A DNA stretch of 64,000 bases from Taxawa tesnikishii (nom. ined.) (taxonomy: Eukaryota > Ascomycota > Dothideomycetes > Dothideales), in assembly GCA_030247885.1 (NCBI GenBank), contig JAPDRO010000025.1, positions 186,001 through 250,000 on the forward strand, read 5' to 3'. Position 1 is the stretch's first letter; every line of letters begins with the position of its first letter. Below the pieces are notes generated by a model. That model saw only the letters and a list, made by a program, of their open reading frames with translations. It had not been told where the DNA came from and did not search any database. Positions 10,537 to 62,636 of this stretch are shown in pieces. The position numbers were made by a program, and so were the translations under genes.

Positions 10537-10938
10537 GCTCGTTTTCTTTTTTTTTTTTTGGTCTTGGTTACCTAGAGGTTGTCCGCTGTAGCACGTTCCG
10601 TCAATCCATGTGTGGTCTTGTTCTACTATGTATTGCACAGCTGTGATTAAGTCGCCGACCGTTCTTTGCGATGTCGGCGACTTATCGACGTCGTGAAGGG
10701 CGTGTATGTAGGGCGTGTCGCCATCGCGCAATATTGAAGCAGGTGGCACAGCCACGCGCAAGTGGGGTAGCCCTTGGCAGTGATCGACCGTATCAGGAAG
10801 GGCTCCCCAAGGGGATACGTTTGTATGTTTTATAATGATGGCAGGGTGCTATAGTGACCTTCGCCAGGCCTCGATTTCCTAGCATTGGGGAAATCCGTCA
10901 CCTTCGCTTTCGTGCACGCAGAAACCAACGTTGCGGGG
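10537..10938. other. Divergent intergenic region with an A/T tract
   Basis: Separates the start codons of the methyltransferase and the HET-WW gene. An uninterrupted A/T run lies near 10547-10558 (T on the plus strand), just upstream of the methyltransferase start. No gene seen. Confidence 0.6.
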
Positions 10939-13053
10939 ATGGCACGTCTTAAAAGGTTCAAATACTCGCGGCTAAGAGATCAGAGCAACATCAGGGTTAT
11001 CAAGCTTCTCCCTGGTAGGAGAGACGATGTGGTTGTGTGCTCAATGTTCGAACTGCAGGCCGGCCAGACGAAAGCGTACGAAGCCTTATCTTACTGCTGG
11101 GGCAAACCGGATCGTCTTGTCGATATCGTCTGCAATGGACGCAGGATGAAGGTGACACCTAATCTCCGCGCAGCGCTGCAGAACCTACGCAAGGACGACT
11201 CCAATAGAATGCTATGGGTTGACGCGATGTGTATCAACCAAGACGACGTGGCGGAAAAGTCAGTGCAAGTCCAGCGGATGAAGGAAACCTACTCCGACGC
11301 GGAGCATGTGATTGTGTGGTTGGGCGAAGCGATGGAAGACAGCGACGAGATTATGGATCTGATCGCGGCCATTGAAGCGACGCCTATGGTTGCAGAATTC
11401 GCTCACTACATGAAGGACGGTCGCCAAGACCTCAGATGGCGAGGGACGCCCCGTTTCAGTCTTCCGCTGCTCCCGTTAGAAAACGATTCGCCCTTACACA
11501 TTGCTTTGGAACGATTCCTGCAGCGACATTGGTTCTTCAGGATCTGGGTGCAACAAGAAGCCGCTGTGAACAAGAATACCAGCGTCGTTTGTGGTCAGAA
11601 GACATGTTCTTGGGACCAGCTATACGGCCTCTCGTGGTCTTGCGATTACGACTGGCATACCCGGGGTCTCACTTTGAGCAGAAAAGCATGGACGGCTTGC
11701 GATTCGATTGATGAGATCCAGAAGAATAGATTTGTCTGTTGCGGCGACTTGCATCCTCCCCGGCTACTCCAACTGCTATCGATGACCTCTGGGTGCCAGT
11801 GTGAACGGCCAGGCGATAAGATCTTTGCCCTACTCGGACTGATAGCGCAGAAGGATATAGATAAATACGCCCCCATTCCAGACTATTCCATTGCACCACA
11901 GACGTTGTTTTCCAATCTTGCCATACGTTATTTAGAAATGGGTAATACCTCTTTTCTGGAAAACGCTGGACGGTACAGACACGAACTCCCAGATCTTCCA
12001 TCGTGGGTTCCCGATTGGAGCTGGAGTGCAAGAATAGACAGATGGACTTCCTTTAAAAAGTTTCCCTTCAAAAGCGATGGGAGAGTCCGGATGAATCGGC
12101 TTGGTCACATTTACATAACGACGGGAGTTCTGATCGACAGACTAGCTTTTGTCAGTGGGGTCACCAAAGAGGCCTACTGGGTACAGACGCAGTTCTCTTT
12201 GCATGCTTGTCAAACCCTGCTGTCCTTCCTGGATAGGTGTATTACCGCGGCGGCAAGCTCTACTATATACGGAGACCAACGAGATCGGGCTTTTCTGGCT
12301 TCGCTATCGGACCAGCACTCCGCGCTATGGGACCTTATTGGAGATTCTCGAGGAAGTCATATACTCAAGTCATTACGAGATTGGCTTTCCAGAGAATCAC
12401 CTGTAGTACCGTTGTCCAGTTCTGACCATGACCTGGACCCTGGTACTCTCGTTGTAAAATTGGAGAGCGCAAGGATTTTCGACTCGCGGCAGTTTGGTGT
12501 TACTGAGAGAGGCCGATTCTGCCTTCTTCCTCCCCAGGCGCGCTTGAATCAATCCATCGCCATCATCACGGATTCGGTGTATCCGCTAGTGATTGCTCCT
12601 CACGGGAAGTATCATGAGATAATAGGTCCGTGCTATGTTCAGGGGATAATGGATGGGGAGCTGTTCGGCCAGGACGAAGTGATCCGAGGTCTTACGCAGG
12701 AGCATCGCAGAAGAGAGCGTTGCGCAAATGGGGACTATTCTGGAGAAGACACGAAATTGCCTTTTCCACCTGGTTGGAGTGTGAGCAGCCGCACCAGCGA
12801 GTCAGGCTGGCAATTTTTCGAGCACCTGGGCCTTGGGATTGATACATGGCAAGATCCGCGGTTTCCGCACTCCGAAACCGGACCTTGCCCGAGAGGTTGG
12901 CGAGCCGGTAGATGCAGTCGTACGGACAGACCGTTAGGCCGAAGAGTCTACTTCATTAACGAGGAAACTGGTGATACGACTTGGGACGATCCATGCCTTG
13001 TAGACGACCCTCCCGAATTCCCTCCCGAATTCCCTGGCTTTTACTTCATCTAG
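10939..13053 (+). CDS. HET-domain protein with two C-terminal WW domains
   Basis: A 704-residue intronless protein. The HET (heterokaryon incompatibility) domain starts at about residue 47 with YEALSYCWG, then LWVDAMCINQDD and QVQRMKETYSDAEHVIVWLG, the three classic blocks. The middle has the usual CxRPGDKIFALLGL-like segment and LPSWVPDWSW. The end is unusual. At about residues 605-641 the sequence reads PPGWSVSS...FFEHLG...TWQDPR, and at about 650-685 PRGWRAG...VYFINEETGDTTWDDP. Both match the WW fold: first Trp, aromatic pair, then Trp and Pro; the second is the better match. The frame is open upstream of 10939 without an ATG, so the ATG at 10939 is the start. Known role of the HET family: non-self recognition and cell death. 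WW domains bind proline-rich partners, which here are unknown. HET call sure, WW call fairly sure. Confidence 0.92.
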   Translation: MARLKRFKYSRLRDQSNIRVIKLLPGRRDDVVVCSMFELQAGQTKAYEALSYCWGKPDRLVDIVCNGRRMKVTPNLRAALQNLRKDDSNRMLWVDAMCINQDDVAEKSVQVQRMKETYSDAEHVIVWLGEAMEDSDEIMDLIAAIEATPMVAEFAHYMKDGRQDLRWRGTPRFSLPLLPLENDSPLHIALERFLQRHWFFRIWVQQEAAVNKNTSVVCGQKTCSWDQLYGLSWSCDYDWHTRGLTLSRKAWTACDSIDEIQKNRFVCCGDLHPPRLLQLLSMTSGCQCERPGDKIFALLGLIAQKDIDKYAPIPDYSIAPQTLFSNLAIRYLEMGNTSFLENAGRYRHELPDLPSWVPDWSWSARIDRWTSFKKFPFKSDGRVRMNRLGHIYITTGVLIDRLAFVSGVTKEAYWVQTQFSLHACQTLLSFLDRCITAAASSTIYGDQRDRAFLASLSDQHSALWDLIGDSRGSHILKSLRDWLSRESPVVPLSSSDHDLDPGTLVVKLESARIFDSRQFGVTERGRFCLLPPQARLNQSIAIITDSVYPLVIAPHGKYHEIIGPCYVQGIMDGELFGQDEVIRGLTQEHRRRERCANGDYSGEDTKLPFPPGWSVSSRTSESGWQFFEHLGLGIDTWQDPRFPHSETGPCPRGWRAGRCSRTDRPLGRRVYFINEETGDTTWDDPCLVDDPPEFPPEFPGFYFI

Positions 13054-49769: not shown

Positions 49770-52287
49770 GTTCTCAGGCTGCCAGCAGCTTTCGTTGCGA
49801 ACTCAGGATACCATGCAACCAATGTCGATCGGTAGTTGACAAGTCTAGCGAGGAATGCGGGATAAGGCTTAGCAGAATGGCGCAAATTCCGGAGCGAGTG
49901 AGATGCGGTAAGCGCGCTACAGGATGAGAAGCTGCGGTGTCTGCTGGCCGGCAGTGCTTTGCAGAATGGATTGTTGTCTGGAGTTTACGACGTGTATATC
50001 ACTCAACGGTGTGTATTTCTTGACAAAGTTCTGGTCGCGACCGTGAGATGCGGAGACTGAATCCACTTTGTTTGCCAAGCGCTGTTGGTTAGGCAACAGT
50101 GGGTCTGACCGCAGAACTTATCCTGGCCTGCGCGTCATATCAGATCGACAGCGCAGATGGCTTGCACCGTTGCTTACTTGCAATTGGCCTCTATCTTTGC
50201 AATTCATGTACAAAAAGGTACAACACGCACTGGAGAAGCAAAAGCGTATACCATTGATGTATACGGTATTGTGCAGACTCACTGCAAGCTGGTTGGAAGA
50301 GGGGACGCTGAGCTGTTTCGTTGCTCGTCGCTAGCATTGACCATTATTACATTACAGGCTCAAGTCTTCGGTGCGGGACCCAGCATGTGCACGTCGGCTC
50401 CGGAGCTTGACATGCAAGTAGACGGAGGAAGGCTGGTAGCACTCAACAACGCCCAAGCAGTTGTGAGCAAAATAGACAGTTGTTGTTGTTATTGTTGGGC
50501 AGAGTGCGTACAGACGGCTCGCCCCCACCCGCTTGTTTCGTGGCTGTTCCCGTCATGGAAGAAACGATTCCAACGAACTCTCACTGTTGTCCCTGCCTTC
50601 GTTAATCGATCTACTCACCGTGGCCGTCATCCTCGCGTGTTGCAGGTATCTTGTCGATTGTAGAGGCGTTGTACGTACAACGATCCGGCCGCAATGGATG
50701 TAGCGCCTGGTCAAGCCTTTTGCCGTTTCAACTCTCCGATGTGATGTGAAGCGCTGAACCGGCCGGGCTGTTTCTGGCCGTGTGGATCAGATCGGTATTC
50801 TGCTGCTGCCTCAGTGCCTCTTCAGAAGCCGGTCTTATCGCACTCGGCCTCGCCTGGAATACATACAGCACTTGTCTCTCGCGATGCTTATGAGTCGCTG
50901 GACTCCTCTCAGCTCGCTCTTGTACGGGCCCGTGCATCAGGGGGTTTAAAATTGCTGGTGAACCTTTCAGCTGCCACACTGCAAGCCTGAATGCGCCACA
51001 AAGCTACGCGCGCCCAATGTTCGTAGCTACCGAGCGGAACGATCACCTCATGTACTTCTTTCGGACTCTGACCAGCGCTACAGCGAACCAGGGCTTGCAC
51101 CGCCATATAGCATCTTGGCTGCCTGCACCGATGTTTCCAGAAACGGACACACTCATCCTAATGAGTGCGTGAACGCACGCGCTACTCGTACCCATGCAGG
51201 TGTTTCTATGTCGTGCCGAACCTATCTCGCTGCTGACATCAGGCCGGGACTTTGGTGATCCGCAATACGGCACACATCTCGTTCGTCAATCAGGGTCCAG
51301 ATGCGCGCTCGTTCGCTGCTAACTGTCACCTCACACCACACCGTTGAGCGTCTTCACACACGACTGCACCGCATCACCCATGGAAAACACACGCTGAGGT
51401 CAAGTCCAGCGGCGCCCCGCGTGCGTTTTTCGTGTTTGCCGGCACCGTCCCTGCAAGTTTTTGCCAGCGCAGAGTTGAGGCTCCACACTGTCGGTCTTGG
51501 CGGACGCAGGTACCCGTCGCAGGCTTCGATAGCCCTAGACTAGACCCATGGTTGTTCCATCTGCTGCTTTGCCTTGGTCCGCGGAACACTCGCTGCCCAC
51601 TTCACGGCCATCTGCGGCACTCCCGCGTCAATCCCTGATCTTCTCACTGAGCGTCCGCTTCCCCTGAGTGGAATTAGAAATTGGCGTGCGGGATCTGCTA
51701 CTCCGACACAAAGCTAGTCTCATTGCACGTGGAGAACCCTCACACGAGCACGCTACGCAAGCTGTCGACTATCGACAAGTGCTGGCATCGAAGCCTCCCA
51801 GACCGTTAGCCACGCCACTTGGTACATAGCGGCAGCTGGGCATCGGTTATCTCCTACCTCGTCGCCGAGTCAAAAGTCCGGTGGTGCACAGAGTTTGTGG
51901 TCTATTAATGGTCGCTGCAGCCAGCCGCAAGACGCTCAGTCTCAGAGAAACTGAGACTGGAAAGGCTAGTATGGTCTTGGACTCCACGGGTGGGCAGCAG
52001 CATGGACACTGTGTATGGCGGTTGCGGGTACGCTCCGCTCTACCAGAAGATAATCCTGGCCGAGACAATGGACCTGTGCCTGTAGCGGGCGCTATGGTAA
52101 TTGCGTAGGTGTGTTTTCTATGGTTCGTCTCGGTCGGAAAGTAGCCTGCAGCTCTAAGCTCTTGACACTATGCAGGAAACTTATAACGTCGTCGTCCCTG
52201 TGGGTATGTATCTGAGTGCCGTGTTTTTTCATCCCGTCGTTATACTTGCAGCCATTCTTTTGCGTCACTCATTTCAACAACTTTGCC
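49770..52287. other. 2.5 kb gene-free gap
   Basis: The longest gap in the window, upstream of ase1 and of the membrane synthetase. The longest frame (50157-50663, 168 codons, ATG) has no domain and no codon bias. A TTG-rich patch sits near 50480. No terminal repeats or tRNA seen. Both divergent promoters must be here. Confidence 0.55.
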
Positions 52288-55200
52288 ATGGACCACCTTC
52301 AGGTCCAGGGCCTACACGTTCCTTTCTCCTTCCCACTGTCCCTACCTCAGAACGACCGGGTGGCATATCTGCGTCGTGTCGACTTCGCTGTTAACCAATT
52401 AAGCAACAACAAGGCAACCCTACTTGCATCAATACCATTGACTGAGCAGCCATCATCAGCACCTTTGTCTGTTCTCTCCGCAGTTCTTGCTGCTGTTCCT
52501 GGTCCTTGGCCTATCTTTGATCTGCTATGTTGCTACGCCCGCCTTTGGAAACACCTCCCGGAGGCTGCCAAGAGCGGCAAGTCTTCCAACGATCTGCCAC
52601 TGCTCGAGCAGGTATCGAATCAGATCAGAGCCACATACACCGACCTTGCTTCATTGTTCCCATCAAACGACAGACCAGCTATTCACGATGCCAACTCATC
52701 TTCAACCCTGTCTCACCGGGCTCTTTCTTCATTCCTCCGCACATTCCGCCTACCGGTGCCGCAGACCAACCGCGTTGTGGCGATCGCACTGCCAAATGGA
52801 CCCCTACTGGCTCTTGCACTTCTCGCTACGGCGACTTACTACACGGCTGCTCCGGTGTCGGTATCGAGTGGAGCTGAGCAGTTCCGCAACGATGTCTTGC
52901 AGTCAGCAGCCAAGGTCATCCTTGCCACGCCTGCGGATGTTTCTCGCCTCGGTTTAAGAGAATCTTGGGTCCTATACCATGGCATAGAAGTGGTACTGTT
53001 GGAAAGCAACCAGAGCCTCACCTTCAATATGAACCGCATTGACGGTGGAAGACTCACCATTCAGGACAATCACACGCCTAATGCCGCCAACGATGTCGGG
53101 TTGATTCTTTTCACTTCCGGTACTTCGGGTACGAAGAAGGTTGTACCAATGAGTGTGCACTCAATCTTGTCCGGAGTTTCCTTTGTCATTGAATCATGGG
53201 GATTGTCAGAGGATGATGTGTGCTTGAACATGATGCCGCTCTTCCGTAAGCAGTTTTCATCCCATATTCACTCTGGCTTTGCTGACCTGTGCAGATGTTG
53301 GCGGAATCGTCCGGAATCTCTTCGCGCCCATCCTTGCCGGCGGGTCGACCGTTTGCTGCCCGGCTTTCGATCCGAACCTTTTCTGGGATGTAGTGGAAGA
53401 CAAGCAACCAACGTGGTACTATGCGTCCCCGACGATGCACTCCGCAATCCTCGAAGAAGGGCAGAACCGTCCTGAAGCCCTTGCCAAGAGCAACATACGC
53501 CTAATCTGCAACGCTGCTGGCGGTCTCCTTCCCTCTCTTGCATGCTCTCTGCGAGACACTTTCCACTGCATCGTCCTTCCTAGTTATGGTATGACCGAGT
53601 GCATGCCAATCTCGACACCGCCTCTGGATTATGAACTCGACCGACCGGGAACCTCAGGCATCAGTGTCGGTCCTGAGATGGCTATTCTAGATGGCAACGG
53701 ACAGCATCTTCTTCCACACAACGTTGGTCGGATCTCTGTTCGTGGTGCACCTGTTTTTGAGGGATACCTGAAAGGCTCAGGCGTCATTGACAAAAGCCCT
53801 TTCACAGATGACGGGTGGTTCGACACTGGTGATATGGGATACTTGGACCAAGACGGATACCTCTATGTTACTGGGAGGAGCAAAGAAGTCATCAATCGCG
53901 GAGGTGAACTCATCTCCCCTTTCGAAGTCGAAGAAGCCGTTGTGACTGCTGCAAGACGGGAAGGCTCTCCTACATATGGCCGTATCTCCGCTGCCCTTGC
54001 CTTCTCCATGCCACACAGCGTTCTTCAGGAAGTTGTCGGTCTCGCTGTGGTCACTCCACCCGGTAGTCATCGTGTTGACATTCAAGCGTTGCAAGACTCT
54101 GTCGCCGACTCCCTCAATCAGATCAAGTGGCCCGTCTTCCTAGTCTTCATGGATGCACTCCCAAAGAACAACAACAAGATAGTACGTATCAAGCTGGCGG
54201 AGCGTTTGGGTCTCAAGGATATATCTGATGAGACACCACCCTCGGAGCGTCATTACGAGGCCACATGCCCACCGCCAGATACCCCGCTGAGCAAGTCAAT
54301 TTCATGCTCTCCATGCCGTTACGATTCCAACCTTGTCATACGGACGATGGAAGACATCTTCGGGTCTGATGTCGAAGTCTTTGTGCGGCCTGCTGGAGAG
54401 GACCGAAGAGAGTCCGAGGCAATTATTGCGCCGCGTCCAAGTACAGCGACCACCATCGCCCCGGAGACTTTGGTTGAGCTCCAACGCAAAGTGGCTGCCG
54501 AGCTAGATTACTACATGGCTCCCAGGAAGTTCAGCTTTTTGATGAACCGCTGCCCCGAAGCGCCCGAGGCTCCATCGACTCGGCACAAGTGGACTCACTT
54601 CTGCAGGCAAAGCTTCCGAGTGGTCTTATCGATGACTCTTCAATGTCGCCGACCGAGAGTAAGATCGCACACATCTTCTCACAGATCCTTATATGCCCCT
54701 TGAGTAGTTTGTCCAGCGACTCCGATTTCTTCCAGATGGGCGGGGACAGTCTGCGAGCTGGCCGCCTGGTGTCTGAACTTCGTAAAGAGTTCAAGATCAG
54801 ACTGCCTATCGACTTGCTTTTCACTCATGGCAGAATTGAATCCTTGGCCCGCAACATCGACGAACGAGTCCAGGAGACGAGCAAAGAAGCGTCTGCGCCG
54901 TTCGTCGAGATACCCCTCGACAACCAAACCAACACAGTGACGTACAGCTCCACCAACCCCTTTCTGATGCTTCTCCAGCTTTTCCCTATCGCGCTTCTCT
55001 ATCCCATGAAGCGTGCTCTCACATGGACAATTTTCATGTACATGCTCACAGCGACTCAATCGTGGGCCACTACTCACACCCTGATCGGCCGCCTTGTGAA
55101 TTTGATCCTCTGCTTGGGTATTGGAAGAGCTATCACACGGCTCATCGTGCCTCTCGTTGGAATCTCACTGAAATGGATCATCATCGGGAGGATCAAGGAA

Positions 55201-57426
55201 GGAGTCTACCCTATGTGGGGCTCATATCACACCAGATGGTGGCTTGTCCAGAAAATCTTACAGGTGACCGGAAGAGGACACTTCGGCTCCTACAACTCGA
55301 CGCTCATCCTCTACTACCGTATGCTTGGTGCCAGAATCGGTTCGGGCGTCAAGATTGCCACCTCCGCAACGCTGGGCGAGTATGATCTGCTTGAGATTGC
55401 TGACGGAGCCAACCTGGACAAGTGCATTTGCAGGGGCTTTGCCGCTGAGCAGAACACTCATATGTACTTGGGCAAGATCCGCGTCGGAAAGGATAGTAGT
55501 GTAGGTCTCAACTCAATTGTTGCACCTGGAACAACCCTGCCGGACGGAGCTTGCATTGGTCCCAACTCGTCCAGCTGGGAGACCAAGGATGCAGACGAGT
55601 CGAACCGAGAGTTGTCTGCGAACCGGGTTCCTGGAGCCCACTGGGTATTCGATCTCTTCCTTAGCATACCAACGAGCCTCCTTGTCACGCTCGTGCAAGC
55701 TGGCCCTTGGATCGGCGGTCTTGTCGGTCTAGTCATGGTCGAGCCAGGGGAGTCCGATGACCAGGTCAGATCCACTATCGAGTGGTTCGCCGCACCACAC
55801 CGGATTGGCTTCCACTACCTCGCCCTGATCCTTAACTCGTACTTCGGTCCCATGGCATGGTTCCTGGCTGTGTTTGCGCTCAAGAAACTGCTCGATGCGT
55901 CTATTGGCAAGACAAGACCCGGACCGGCAGCACGCAGGAGTGAACTGCAAAAATGGCGCATGGCAGTGCTCAAGAAGATCGCACCTGTCGGCAAGTTTCA
56001 CAAGCTCTTGGAGATATTTGGTAGCCACTATGAATTCACTTCCATATTGTACCGAGCAATGGGCGCCAAGGTCGGCTCCAGGGTATACTGGCCGGGAACT
56101 GGACCTTTCTTCCAAGACTTCGACCTTATGGATATTGGCAATGATGTTGTCTTCGGGTCCAGAGCGCACATCATCACCTCCGACGGCAGCGGCAGCGATG
56201 TTGTCAAGGTCGGTAACGGCGCGATGATAGCTGACCGCGTGGTCCTTCTTCCAGGCGCGTCGGTCGGCGAGCAGACTGTACTCGGCAGCGGCGCTCTGAC
56301 ACGCCGCAACAAACACTACCCGTCAAACACTGTCTGGATCGGCAGTCAGCAGAACGAAGCTGTCTGTCTTTCCGGAAACTCGTCCAGTACCGATGACACG
56401 ATGAACGAAACCCTCGAGAAGAAAACGACAAGGGTCACAATTACCGCCTACGATAATAGCGAATACTCTTCCGACGACAGCAAACCCTCCAGCAGCGCCT
56501 CATCTGCCATCATCAAGATTGATGGATCGTCGACCAGCTCTTCACCTTTTGGCCGTGCCTTCTATGAGGGTAAAGCATCCTATTACGTATTCGGTCTTTC
56601 CACCATCTTCCTCTACTCCAGCTTCATCACCATCTTTACTGCCTTCTACTGGAATGTCAGCCCCACCTCATCCATTCAAGTCGTCTCCGCCCTTCTCGCG
56701 CTCGGCCACCATGCCCTCGCCAAGGAGCACTGGTATCGCCCTCTCGTCATCTACGCCCTCTTCACTCTCTCAATCGCCATCCTCATGGCTGCCCAAGCCA
56801 TCCTCGCACTCGCCCTCGTTATCGCCAGCAAGTGGATCCTCCTCGGTCGCCGCCAACCAGGCAACTACGACTGGGACAAGAGCCCCTACTGCCAGCGCTG
56901 GCAACTCTTCCTCACCATCGAGAAGCTTCGCAGACACTGTTACGGAGGGCACGGTATCCTGGGCCTGTTGACCGGCACCCACTACGCTGTTTTGTACTTC
57001 CGCGCGCTCGGGGCTACCATCGGCAAGGACTGCGCGCTGTTCGCGGGCGGTCTGCCCAGCCTCATGTTCACGGAACCGGACCTCCTGACCCTCGGCGATA
57101 GAGTCGCGGTCGACGACGCCAGTCTGGTCAGCCACATCAACTCCAGAGGCGTCTTCAACCTCAACAGACTTAGCGTTGGCGATCGCAGCGTGCTGCGCTC
57201 GGGCTCAAGGCTGCTCTCCGGCGCGCAGATGGGCAAGGACAGCGTCTTGCTCGAGCACACGCTCGTCATGGCGGGGGATGTTGCCGACGAGGGCTGCACG
57301 TACCAGGGTTGGCCGGCGGATGTGTTCCATCGATCCAGGACGCCGTCGAGGGCTCCTAGCATCAAGATCACTCATGCGAGCATGCAATTTCCCTCCACTC
57401 GAGCTGCCGGTCTTTCTTTCTCATGA
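52288..57426 (+). CDS. NRPS-like membrane synthetase: CoA-ligase-type adenylation, carrier, three membrane/beta-helix units
   Basis: 1696 residues (corrected). Exon 1 is 52288-53245; intron 53246-53294 joins MPLF to HVGGIVRNLF. The adenylation domain has LFTSGTSGTKKVVPMS, YGMTECMP, GWFDTGDMGYL and GRSKEVINRGGELISP, closest to Pcs60/oxalyl-CoA synthetase-type ligases rather than amino-acid A domains. A gap at 54549-54555 (one base short) restores RLPRSARGSID and links to the carrier domain FFQMGGDSLRAGRL (Ser at 54748-54750). Then come three units, each a hydrophobic cluster plus hexapeptide beta-helix repeats: about 54960-55600, 55640-56340 and 56560-57330. Examples are YYRMLGARIGSGVKIA, LYRAMGAKVGSRVYWP and YFRALGATIGKDCALF. 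This order matches the terminal region (TIGR02353) of poly-lysine synthetase Pls. Product unknown. Confidence 0.9.
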
Positions 57427-58351: not shown

Positions 58352-61300
58352 CCGCCCGCAACGCGGAAAAGGAAGACGATAAGTGCCTGCTCGCTTTAAA
58401 CTGCCCGGACTCATTCACTGTCAAGATCCGCCTGTTGGACAGCAAGGGCGAAGTTCTACCCCAATGTTTCCACTGGATTCTTTCCACAGACGGCTATCGG
58501 GCGTGGCGGGACAGGGACAAGAGAGTCTTATGGATCAATGGAGGTCCCGGAAAAGGAAAAACTATGATGGCGATGGGGTTGATTAACGACCTCGGAGAGG
58601 CACAAGGGAGCAGTACATCCCAGCCCATGGTGTGCTACTTCTTCTGTCAGAACACGGACAACAGATACAACAGCGCCGTAGCCATTGTCAAGGGTCTGAT
58701 CGCTCAATTGGTTTCGGTCGACAGAACCCAGATTGCTCATCTGCGCAAGCATTGGGACGATGAGAAAGAGGCGTTCAAGAAGGACCCTGACGTGGAATCG
58801 CTGGAGACTCTATGGGAGATACTGCTGAAGATGCTGGATTCCATAACTTCCACAACGAAGCAGAGAATCTATGTGGTTGTAGATGCCGTGGATGAATGCG
58901 GGGATGGAAGAAAGCAGTTCCTCAGGAGGGTTGCGCGTTCCGGCACATCAATTTCTCCCAGGGTAAAATGGTTGTTCACCAGCCGTCCGCTCGACCACCC
59001 TGAGCGGTTTCTGCACGACGCATCAGGCTTCCCGACGATCAATCTTGAAGACAACCGAATCTCCCTAACATCCGCAATCAAAACTTTCATCAACCATAAA
59101 GTGGACGAGCTGTGCAGGACTCGAAAATACGATGATATTCCGCGCGGTCCTTTGGCATCTGGGCTTGAAGCACGGGCCGGGAATACGTTCCTCTGGGTAG
59201 CGTTAGTCTGTCAACAACTTGAGGATGTGCCTTCCGAAGAGATACTAACCGCAGCTGTGCGTTTCCCTTCCGGCTTGGATTCCTTTTATGCGCGTATGAT
59301 CCAGGAGATTCACGACCGAGACGAAGTGACGGCCAGGCTATGCAACCAACTAATCATGGCTGCCACACTAGCTGAACGTCCCCTACACGTACGAGAAGCG
59401 AGTCACATTGCCGGTTATCCGCATGATGAGAGACGAAAGGCTACGTCGGTCCGTCGCATTGTCGATAGCTGCAAATCGCTGTTGGCTTTGCAAGACGATG
59501 ATTGCGTACATTTCGTCCATCTGTCAGCTAAGGACTACATCAATTCGAAGATCTCTCCATCCGAACTTCCTAAGAAGCACGAGTGTATCGCAAAGCAATG
59601 CTTGGAGCTCATGATAGAGCGCCTCGATAAGAATATGGGCGAGCTGCCTTCCGTATCGACACATGTTTCAGAGCTACGAGAGGGAAAGCGCAAGGACCTC
59701 CTGGCCGAAATAGGGTATGCTTGCCGGTTCTGGATGGAGCACCTCATCCGCAGTTACGAGTCATACGGCGTCGGCAGTGGCCTTCCGGATGCTACTTCTT
59801 TGGACCAATTTTTCACCTCAAAGCTCCTCCATTGGCTCGAGGCCATAAGCATACTGGGTAACATACCTGAAAGTGTTCTCTTGCTGCAACGCCTGAAGAG
59901 AGCGGTAGACGTACGTAAACCCATGACGTTCCTGGTCAAGGCCTTGTCAGCTGACACACAGTAGCGCGTCGCCGGTAACAGTCACTGCTTGTCCACTCGA
60001 ACGGCTGATACATTGCGGTTCATCGCCAACAGCAGGGCAGGAATAGAGGGTTGGCCGCTACAGATATATTGTTCTGCATTGCTATTTGCCCCAACAACCA
60101 GCTGGATCCGGACTCAATACGGGGATAAAATTCCTAAATGGATTGTGCAAAAGCCCAACACGGAAACCGAATGGAGCAGCTGCCTGCAAGTATTCGATCA
60201 CGGTGTCCCAGTGGGGAGCTATCCTGAGCTGCTTGCCTTTTCGACTGATGGTGCTACAATCGCTGCTGCTTCATGGAGCGATATCAGACTTTGGGATGTG
60301 GCAACGGGCAAAGCTCGCTCGTTCAAGGCGAAATATCCGAGCGAAATTGTCCTTTGTAGAGGCGCCCAAGCTGCCAGATTTCTTACACTGAGTATTTACG
60401 ACAAACCCACCATACACAAAGAAGCTATCATAGTCAGAACTGTCCACCAGTGGGATATAGAAACCGGAGAGTCCTACTGCCTTCTCAAATTGGAAAGTCT
60501 TTCCATACAGTCGGGGGAAACGACGCAGCCGCGCTTTCTCCGGATGGTAATTTTGTTGCAAAGGTACAAAGCAACATTGTCACGTTGCTTGACCTGAGGG
60601 ATGGTCAAACTGGAAATTGGAGGAAGTCGTACAAGAAGATTCCCCTGTCGAAAGCTTGATATTTTCGCCAGACTCTAATCTCATTGCCGTTCTTGTGGTT
60701 AGTGGGATGATAAGGCTCTGTGGAGTCGCCCAGGGGCGGGTCCTCAGAACGCTTGAAGGCTCTGCAGGCGGACACTGCTTTGCGGAATTTTCTCCAGACG
60801 GCAAGATGCTCATCTCTGTTTCCGCAAAATCAGGAGAGGTCCGCCGCGCACCAGAGACGTCCATCGGAACAGCCTTCCGCATGTGGAACACAGAGACAGG
60901 AGAACTCAGATACGCTTTTGTTGACGCATGGCCAGAACCCCCGTCTCTGCAGTTCTCCCGAGATGGCAGATTGCTTGCTTATTCGATAAGTTATCAGAGG
61001 ATTATTCTTCGAGACACCGCAAGGGGAGAAGTTTGCTGTACCATCGGTGGCAGTAGAGTTTTCACCTTCTCACCAGAATCCACACGAATCGCATTCGTTG
61101 ATGGGATAGCAATTCGTTTATGGAACATTGCTCAGGCCAAGCCGGTCAGCACGTTCCAGGGGCACTCGGATTTCATCGTTAGACTCGCATTCTCCCCAAA
61201 CGGCCAACTTCTTGCGTCCAGCTCTCGCGACGGAACAATCAGGGTCTGGAGCACTAGTTCCCAGTTGGAGGCTCCAAAAGTGACCGATCAGCAGAGTGAC

Positions 61301-62636
61301 GATAATGCTATCGGAATGTCGTCGCCACAAGACATGGCCGCCACTACCAAGACCCAAACCGCGACCACTCCAGCTTCCAAGCCCGGCATTAGTTTGCCTT
61401 CACTACCATCAGCTGCGGATGCATTGCTCTCTGAAATCGATGGTGATGCAAATAGAGCCGAGTTGGCGATCGGGTCAGTTGTACTCGCAGAAGAAGGAGA
61501 GGTGGCTGCCTCACTACACGAGGATGATGCTATCAAGTTATGGGACGCTGAAGAGGCCAAGGTTTTTGCCACATTGGTTCCTAATCACTGGACCACATCT
61601 AAGCTTCCATCCCGCAAGGTCATCATCTCGCCTGACGGGCGAATGCTGGCCTACGCTGCCACGACTTACGGTTATGGTGCCGCGCAAAGAGGTGTAATTG
61701 CGTTGTGGGATATCGAGCACAGGAAGCCTTGTCATCAATCGGAGATAAAGGTCTCATACGATAGGGATAAGCTCACAGCAACCTTTTCGCGAGACGCCAA
61801 ATATTTCGCGTATTTACATGATCCCCAAACCGTCAAGCTCCTCAACGTGGCAGAAAGGGAAGAGTGCGCGTCAGTTGAGGTTCTCTACCTACCGTTGACA
61901 CATGTTGTCTTCTCACGGGATGCTGACATGTTCGCTTGTGGCTTTCTCGGTGGGTTCGCCGTGTGGAAACTTCGTAAACGACGGCAAAAGAGCGGACAAC
62001 CTCGTGCAAGCACTATCAGCGGCACTGGGAGACTATTCACGCATGAAAGGAATCGTCCTTATTTTCCTAAGCTCAAGTTCTCAGAAGACGGCACGCGACT
62101 CTTCGCCGGTGACTCGATCTACAAGCTACCAGAAGGAACTGACGTTCAACATGAAGAGATACCACTACGTTGCCCTCTCTCATACAACAGGCAATGGATC
62201 CGTTGTGGTGAGGAAGGACTCATCTGGGTCCCTCCGGATTATAGGCCGCTATCCGGATTTGAATGCTACTGGTCAGCCTCTCAGACGCGTAGAGGAAATA
62301 CGATCGCGTTGGGTCTAGCGAGCAACCGGCTTGTGTTCATCACAATAAATCCACGAGAAGCTTTGCGCGAATTTCCAACGGAGGTGTACAGCAAGTATAC
62401 GTTCCCCTCGTTTGTCGAGCCTATAGAAAGCGAGACAGAAAGCGACATTGAGAGCGGAACAGAGGACGACTGGCACTATGTTTCTGATGATGGTACCGAG
62501 GCCGGCGTTGGTGAGTATGGTTCTTCTCCCGCGTCTCATCCCCCGATGTTCAACCATCGCTCATCTACTTTTGTTGACATTGACACTGACGAGCCTGGCA
62601 GCTCTTGATGGATATCTCGGCGAGCGCCCAGCCTAA
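58352..62636 (+). CDS. NACHT/WD-repeat STAND protein (fungal NLR), N terminus unresolved
   Basis: Signal-transducing NTPase of the type used in fungal self/non-self recognition. Exons are about 58352-59910, 59965-62510 and 62602-62636, with good donors (gtacgt, gtgagt). The NACHT region has KCLLALNCPDS, WRDRDKRVLWINGGPGKGKTMM (P-loop) and YVVVDAVDECGDGRKQ (Walker B). The link region SHCLSTRTADTLRFIAN and LQIYCSALLFAP is typical between NACHT and WD parts. About eleven degenerate WD-like repeats follow, for example FSPDGKMLISV, AFSPNGQLLASSSRDGTIRVWS and IISPDGRMLAY. Unlike HET-E genes the repeats are not near-identical. Two one-base losses are inferred at 60500-60502 and 60614-60616. An acidic tail ends the protein (GYLGERPA). 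The exon carrying the ATG and the N-terminal effector domain was not found. Confidence 0.87.

Follow-up and report, generated by a model that had tools for sequence, protein, structure and literature searches.

A putative polymalate-synthetase-type gene joining a Pcs60-type adenylation domain to a Pls-like membrane part in Taxawa tesnikishii

The analysis of a 64,000-nucleotide stretch of DNA from Taxawa tesnikishii (nom. ined.) (contig JAPDRO010000025.1; the whole stretch is called the window below) revealed one gene on the plus strand, at 52288–57426, in which an adenylation (A) domain, a carrier and a C-terminal part of the Pls/PosA type (C part) follow one another in that order. The combination of an acid-type A domain, a carrier and a three-fold Pls-like part is real and beyond chance. 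By analogy with a described ascomycete enzyme, we consider it somewhat more likely than not that this is, or was until recently, the gene of a membrane-bound polyester synthetase of the polymalate-synthetase type. This proposal is based on the same order of domains and a near-equal gene length in the polymalate synthetase of Aureobasidium melanogenum, on an A domain from a dicarboxylate family and on a C part without the amine-type motif.

Domains and exons of the gene

The domain order had been claimed by the original prediction, an earlier note made from the sequence alone, and it was seen again in Pfam, in the three stretches matched by the NCBIfam model TIGR02353 and in an AlphaFold2 model. 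The motifs quoted in that note, TSGTSGTKK, YGMTECMP and GRSKEVINRGGE, were all found in the translation. The Pfam E-values were 1e-14 (exon 1) and 5e-24 (exon 2) for PF00501, 1e-5 for PF13193, 1e-13 for PF00550 and 2e-13 for the hexapeptide repeats PF00132. The gene occupies 5139 bp of genomic DNA and has 5090 coding bases without the intron, if a frame break described below is ignored. The ATG at 52288 was taken as the start; an in-frame GTG is also present at 52216. No Pfam family was found for the first 130 residues at E up to 1, and the PF00501 adenylation core begins at about 52726 in exon 1. Excision of intron 1 produces the sequence MMPLFHVGG and joins both halves of the adenylation domain. 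The features of the gene are as follows.

52288–53245, plus strand: exon 1, with the start codon (taken), the N-terminal extension and the first part of the adenylation core
52288–52677, plus strand: N-terminal extension, without Pfam match
53246–53294, plus strand: intron 1, 49 nt, GT-AG, with consensus donor and branch site
53295–54175, plus strand: exon 2 up to the end of the A domain, the remainder of the Pcs60/oxalate-CoA-ligase-type adenylation domain
53990–54175, plus strand: the A domain's own C-terminal subdomain, PF13193 (Pfam)
54473–54591, plus strand: second, degenerate AMP-binding_C-like tail (by profile score), directly before the carrier
54500–54590, plus strand: stretch with the frame break, where coding shifts from frame 2 to 1; break near 54.54 kb
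54661–54852, plus strand: carrier (thiolation) domain, PF00550, with GGDSL; phosphopantetheine Ser at 54748–54750
54916–55557, plus strand: C1 repeat, long hydrophobic helices (model residues 109–197), then beta-helix (247–322)
55636–56337, plus strand: C2 repeat, helices (349–438), then beta-helix (518–582); weakest model confidence of the three
56338–56586, plus strand: Ser-rich linker, modelled with pLDDT under 50
56590–57324, plus strand: C3 repeat, helices (667–751), then beta-helix (813–911); family-invariant His at 57133–57135
57424–57426, plus strand: stop codon

Adenylation domain, second tail and carrier

A phmmer search of PDB with the A domain gave as top matches an oxalyl-CoA synthetase (6qjz, 2e-60) and an Arabidopsis-type oxalate-CoA ligase (5ie0, 1e-58), followed by the oxalate-CoA ligase 8aff (4e-48), which we take to be yeast Pcs60, and a malonyl-CoA synthetase (4fuq, 2e-37). 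The closest solved relatives of the domain are therefore the Pcs60/AAE3 oxalate-CoA ligases and the MatB malonyl-CoA synthetase (2e-60 to 2e-37), which are free-standing CoA ligases, whereas the A domain here is fused to a carrier. In BLAST comparisons the domain scored 225 and 197 bits against two bacterial ligases labelled oxalate-type, 171 against a FadD-type ligase, 132 against malonyl-CoA synthetase and 31 against the better of two Pls A domains. The label of the bacterial oxalate-type rows (L006, P0006, L109 and L111) was given by similarity, their records reading AMP-binding protein or being unannotated. A tree of 26 rows placed the A domain within the oxalate group (support 97/95).

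For this assignment we would give most weight to the motifs. In A domains of nonribosomal peptide synthetases (NRPS) the Asp of the FD motif holds the amino group of the substrate. All five Pls rows shown have FD, as do the bacterial Pls A domains examined, whereas the A domain here has no such Asp and reads HVGG, as acyl-CoA ligases do. The sequence PLFHxxG is common to it and the oxalate rows, and INRGGE is shared with most of them. The motifs, BLAST and the tree thus agree with the original claim that the adenylation motifs are those of acyl/oxalyl-CoA ligases and not of amino-acid A domains, and they support the assignment of the domain to an acid-activating, Pcs60/oxalate-CoA ligase type rather than an amino-acid type.

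Two columns set the domain apart from the oxalate rows. One of them is Ser in all six oxalate-group rows shown and in both malonyl rows, and Ala here; the other is His in five of the six oxalate-group rows shown, and Pro here. We take these columns to be the oxalate-binding Ser289 and His319 of AAE3, for which a literature search gave no confirmation. Because they read Ala and Pro, the acid activated is probably not oxalate.

The complete A domain is separated from the carrier by an extra stretch similar to the tail of an A domain (LVELQRKVAAELDYYMAPRKF and LPRSARGSIDS), in which Ser occupies the place of the usual catalytic Lys (LPRSARGSID). With the frame break bridged by X, this second tail scored 12.8 bits against a profile of 52 Pls C-subdomain sequences, where the best of 2000 shuffles reached 6.8; against an acyl-type profile it scored 12.9 bits (best shuffle 4.7), so that the two scores are practically equal. 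Pfam gives no AMP-binding_C match at this place. Four NRPS models align continuously over the tail and the carrier, and inclusion of the tail raises their scores by 9 to 26 bits, with the following values with and without it: 42.6 and 16.4 for MxcG, 39.0 and 30.1 for PRK05691, 36.5 and 22.0 for AusA, and 30.4 and 19.0 for EntF. The best-scoring model, TIGR03443, covers the carrier only and not the tail. It is possible that the second tail is a relic of an amino-acid A domain.

The carrier has the phosphopantetheine attachment Ser in a GGDSL sequence (PF00550). In NCBIfam it matches best (54661–54852) to the carrier region of the L-aminoadipate-semialdehyde dehydrogenase model (TIGR03443, 1.7e-12), and the position of the Asp in GGDSL is occupied by His in all 27 bacterial rows. 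Judged by its sequence, the carrier may have an origin different from that of the C part.

The C-terminal part and its bacterial relatives

The C part matched TIGR02353 with E 9.5e-59 and 199.4 bits, or 200.4 bits without the carrier. An AlphaFold2 model of its 944 amino acids was built on a 28-row alignment and has moderate confidence (mean pLDDT 60.4, pTM 0.61). Three times in this model long helices are followed by a beta-helix, the second repeat being the weakest, and a short strand with two helices, clear in repeats 1 and 3, lies between the helices and the beta-helix. This is the Pls/PosA plan of three repeats of transmembrane helices and a left-handed beta-helix; the same three-fold plan is described for PosA in the available part of a published account (PMC10522769). 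Bacterial Pls and PosA likewise have a carrier and a three-fold membrane/beta-helix C part. A Foldseek search with the model gave partial matches, to hexapeptide acetyltransferases and carrier proteins, four of them at E <= 0.001 (best 6e-4), and the 19 sequence matches to solved structures at E up to 0.001 included none that represents an entire Pls-type C part. The C part is 21–27% identical to 27 bacterial relatives, and the residues that it keeps from columns with one residue in at least 90% of the bacteria include D45, S53, K194, Y206, W209, R215, D548, K747, E828, D830 and H848. The data support homology of the C part to the terminal part of Pls/PosA, a known iterative homopolymer-forming part.

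The third repeat differs from that of the bacteria around its invariant His. Where the bacteria have QTHLFEDRVMK the C part reads VSHINSRGVFN; of these residues H and V alone remain, the Glu-Asp pair has been lost together with its Arg, and a different Arg is present. The motif for which we coined the label QxHxFEDR from the bacterial rows is thus absent from the C part here. Nine of the eleven motif positions are fixed in the 27 bacterial rows (M is found in 26 and V in 24), a conservation that is partly by construction, since the loci were found in part by the C3 motif itself ([LP]QTHL[YF]ED). As a control we used 23 bacterial open reading frames (ORFs) found without the motif, namely 5 plasmid genes and 18 ORFs from genome searches, two of which (L091 and L093) come from a single locus. 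All 23 had Q, H, D and R, and 22 had E; the pattern that located the motif demands H and R, which makes these two partly a product of construction, and no ORF was without such a site. The conservation of the bacterial C3 motif is therefore real, because it is kept in ORFs found without it, and the Q, E, D and R that surround the His in bacterial Pls-type ORFs are lost here. The characterised relatives join amines, from which we infer a role of the acidic pair in binding a cationic amine acceptor; its loss would fit a neutral or anionic acceptor and not a cationic amine.

Some variation of this site was also noted elsewhere. The C2 repeat reads SRAHIITSD at 56143–56240, which by eye is like VSHINSRG of the C3 His motif, and the bacterial C2 rows printed have, by eye, no such His; the fungal protein may have two such His sites. 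In nine ORFs from the survey of one phylum described below (L092, L094–L098 and L100–L102) QAH, with S or T next, replaces QTHL of the C3 motif, and these ORFs form a variant group of bacterial Pls-type proteins.

Among 108 bacterial loci, a Pls-type C part was present in 103 ORFs, and in 94 of these the same ORF also encoded an A domain; the 94 include a few loci counted twice. None of the 94 A domains was nearer to acyl-CoA-type references, in a sample that leans to canonical Pls, as 80 of the 108 loci had been chosen by patterns from three bacterial sequences, the C3 motif included. The remaining nine of the 103 had no A domain in the ORF examined. A search with an alignment of this C part and the bacteria found no stretch conserved enough. 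When genomes were surveyed with the C part, 14 of 294 from one phylum (at most 3 candidates were scored per genome) and 8 of 100 relatives of another genome had matches, all of them distant (24–35% identical among the matches listed). A tblastn search of plasmids with the C part returned 62 records, none covering 80%.

Two observations concern the bacterial genes themselves. In Azospirillum ramasamyi (L003:2345-8231) a Pls/PosA gene whose A domain reads FDLS and is of amino-acid type lies beside a fumarate hydratase gene. Two other bacterial Pls genes (L001:2375-6936 and L005:2327-6996) are directly followed by a 4'-phosphopantetheinyl transferase gene.

Possible function, frame break and neighbouring genes

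The monomer of polymalate, a polyester, is a small hydroxy-dicarboxylic acid. An A domain of the oxalate/malonate family and a C part without the amine-type motif would fit the synthesis of such a polymer. The available parts of two published accounts describe the polymalate synthetase of A. melanogenum as the product of a 5049-bp gene, NRPS-like, with an A domain that makes malyl-AMP, thiolation and condensation domains, six transmembrane segments and no thioesterase (PMC9210645), and as a transmembrane A-like/T/C-like enzyme that polymerises malate (PMC11905612). Growth was unaffected by removal of the gene, and one third of the polymer was regained when the gene was put back (PMC9210645). 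A gene of A. pullulans with 96.5% similarity lies in an NRPS-like cluster, which is listed apart from one NAPAA cluster (PMC11905612).

As far as these descriptions go, the enzyme of A. melanogenum ATCC62921 (QHD40385.1) is a single transmembrane protein whose A-like, T and C-like domains stand in the same order as in the gene here; the 5049 bp of its gene compare with 5090 coding bases, and both genes are from ascomycetes. A HET-domain gene and a NACHT/WD40 gene in the window point to a filamentous ascomycete here. The original prediction knew of no characterised product for this combination and regarded it as the best candidate for an undescribed system in the window. The A. melanogenum enzyme, as described, provides a precedent, and the gene is more likely a relative of a known polymalate synthetase. 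Its original description is reportedly that of Wang et al. 2020 (doi 10.1016/j.ijbiomac.2019.11.188). No other described acid-activating Pls-like enzyme was found among the matches listed in the literature searches, which besides that covered Pls, Epls, PosA and the polymalate work.

In the proposed mechanism a small (hydroxy-di)carboxylic acid, for which L-malate is the most likely candidate, would be converted to its AMP ester by the Pcs60-type A domain and then loaded on the carrier's phosphopantetheine arm. From there the Pls-type membrane part with its three repeats would transfer it to the free hydroxyl of the growing chain, repeatedly, and would feed the chain through or along the membrane. 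The A-domain type and the homology of the C part make the general form of this mechanism, a membrane enzyme that loads an acid other than an amino acid and polymerises or transfers it, the natural reading, as had been suggested earlier.

If the proposal is correct, polymalate-type synthesis would be tied to the dicarboxylate-CoA ligases in the choice of monomer and to Pls/PosA in the growth of the chain, and the distinction between amine and hydroxyl acceptors would be located in the residues around the C3 His. The available parts of the accounts of the A. melanogenum enzyme call its domains 'A-like' and 'C-like', or adenylation, thiolation and condensation, and mention neither the family of the A domain nor a second A-domain tail or an altered C3 motif; an assignment to families would give a concrete, testable structure. 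A Pcs60-type A domain, a carrier and a Pls part without QxHxFEDR could serve as a signature in seeking further producers of polymalate, a polymer of industrial use.

A number of points weigh against the polymalate-synthetase-type proposal. The orthology to QHD40385.1 that it would imply is a supposition drawn from the published description. The available parts of the accounts do not state that the A-like domain is of Pcs60 type (PMC9210645, PMC11905612), and the transmembrane segments are put by the review in the N-terminal part of the enzyme, unlike those of the gene here (PMC9210645). The C part matches TIGR02353, as had been predicted, but its 199.4 bits are below the curated cut-off of 423.1, and it keeps only 64 of the 151 columns in which at least 90% of the bacteria have one residue. 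The branch of the A domain is long (2.03 in the 26-row tree). On a grouping of this domain with Pls, which the original prediction had put up as a check, the motifs, BLAST and the tree speak against it, but an approximately unbiased (AU) test leaves a tree with the A domain beside 12 Pls rows unrejected (p 0.121), and its deep placement is for that reason less certain than the support values suggest. Of 25 ORFs scanned in the window, three belong to this gene; the 22 others included no recognisable transporter, polymer hydrolase or phosphopantetheinyl transferase, although exons split by introns can escape such a scan. Finally, the reading frame is broken, unlike that of the A. melanogenum gene.

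The same layout of acid-type A domain, carrier and Pls-like part could also serve another monomer, such as a hydroxy acid, a dicarboxylate or an aromatic acid, and yield a different polyester or a single capping of a membrane acceptor. We regard this as possible and clearly less probable than polymalate synthesis. It would be consistent with a pocket whose Ser and His columns depart from those of the oxalate-group rows, with the long branch of the A domain and with residues around the C3 His that differ from the bacterial ones; polymalate synthetase is, however, the only characterised precedent that was found with this order and length, as described in the available accounts. A more speculative version, which we put forward as doubtful, is that an oxalate-ligase-type domain took the place of the amino-acid-activating core in a Pls-type enzyme, the second tail being the scar of the exchange and the change in C3 marking a move from amine to hydroxyl acceptor, with a product that may be a polyester other than polymalate.

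The frame break bears on the condition of the gene. Coding passes from frame 2 upstream to frame 1 downstream at about 54500–54590. The two open frames overlap at 54478–54701, frame 1 being open from 54478 and frame 2 up to 54701. By codon use in 60-base windows, frame 2 was best in six of the seven windows starting at 54320–54500 and frame 1 in all five starting at 54590–54710; two windows in between favoured no frame clearly, and an earlier one at 54260 favoured frame 1. An intron as the cause of the frame change was considered and rejected: none of 23 frame-fitting GT-AG pairs had a consensus donor or branch site by simple patterns. For comparison, intron 1 has both, and so does a candidate at the first of two breaks in the neighbouring gene downstream, which encodes a NACHT/WD40 protein. 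As assembled, this copy would not make the whole protein, because its frame is broken, and its value is lowered accordingly. Since none of 14 candidates at the second break of the NACHT/WD40 gene has a consensus donor, an assembly or sequencing problem is as likely a cause of the break as decay.

It is unlikely, in our estimate, that the gene is a once-functional member of the family inactivated in this strain. The break lies within the second A-domain tail, none of the 23 pairs is intron-like while consensus-like candidates exist at intron 1 and at the first break of the neighbour, and codon use switches frame in the same stretch, as expected of such a pseudogene. On the other hand, all else is open over about 5 kb, with the adenylation motifs, the carrier Ser and the C3 His intact, a state that would be expected also if the break were recent or an assembly error; the second break in the neighbouring gene fits an error-prone assembly, and decay as well.

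It is very improbable that two adjacent genes, for a Pcs60-like ligase and a Pls-like protein, have been read as one. The frame does change between the two parts, and the A domain has a complete C-terminal subdomain already ahead of the second tail; but the overlap of the open frames leaves no intergenic gap, a downstream part standing alone would begin inside a domain, as the tail before the carrier is A-domain-like, and the summed length is near the 5049 bp published, in the account available, for the A. melanogenum gene. A synthetase of the usual kind for epsilon-poly-lysine or delta-poly-ornithine, such as that of Epichloe, would explain the TIGR02353 match and is allowed by the AU test, but it can hardly be credited, since the A domain has no amino-acid Asp and scores 31 bits against the better of two Pls A domains and 225 against an oxalate-type ligase, and since the residues around the C3 His are lost. 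In contrast, Epichloe Epls is reported to share 51% identity with Streptomyces Pls and to have a conserved lysine pocket (PMC7179176).

Upstream of the gene lies a MAP65/ASE1 gene on the minus strand, at 47.5–49.3 kb. The NACHT (NPHP3_N) and WD40 gene downstream, at 58435–62608, is in three open pieces. Its first break is at about 59.91–59.96 kb, where the intron candidate is consensus-like, and its second, at about 60.5–60.7 kb, may be a second frame break in the contig. Farther away, at 10885–13053, there is an ORF with a HET (heterokaryon incompatibility) domain and, near its end, a weak WW match under the family cut-off.

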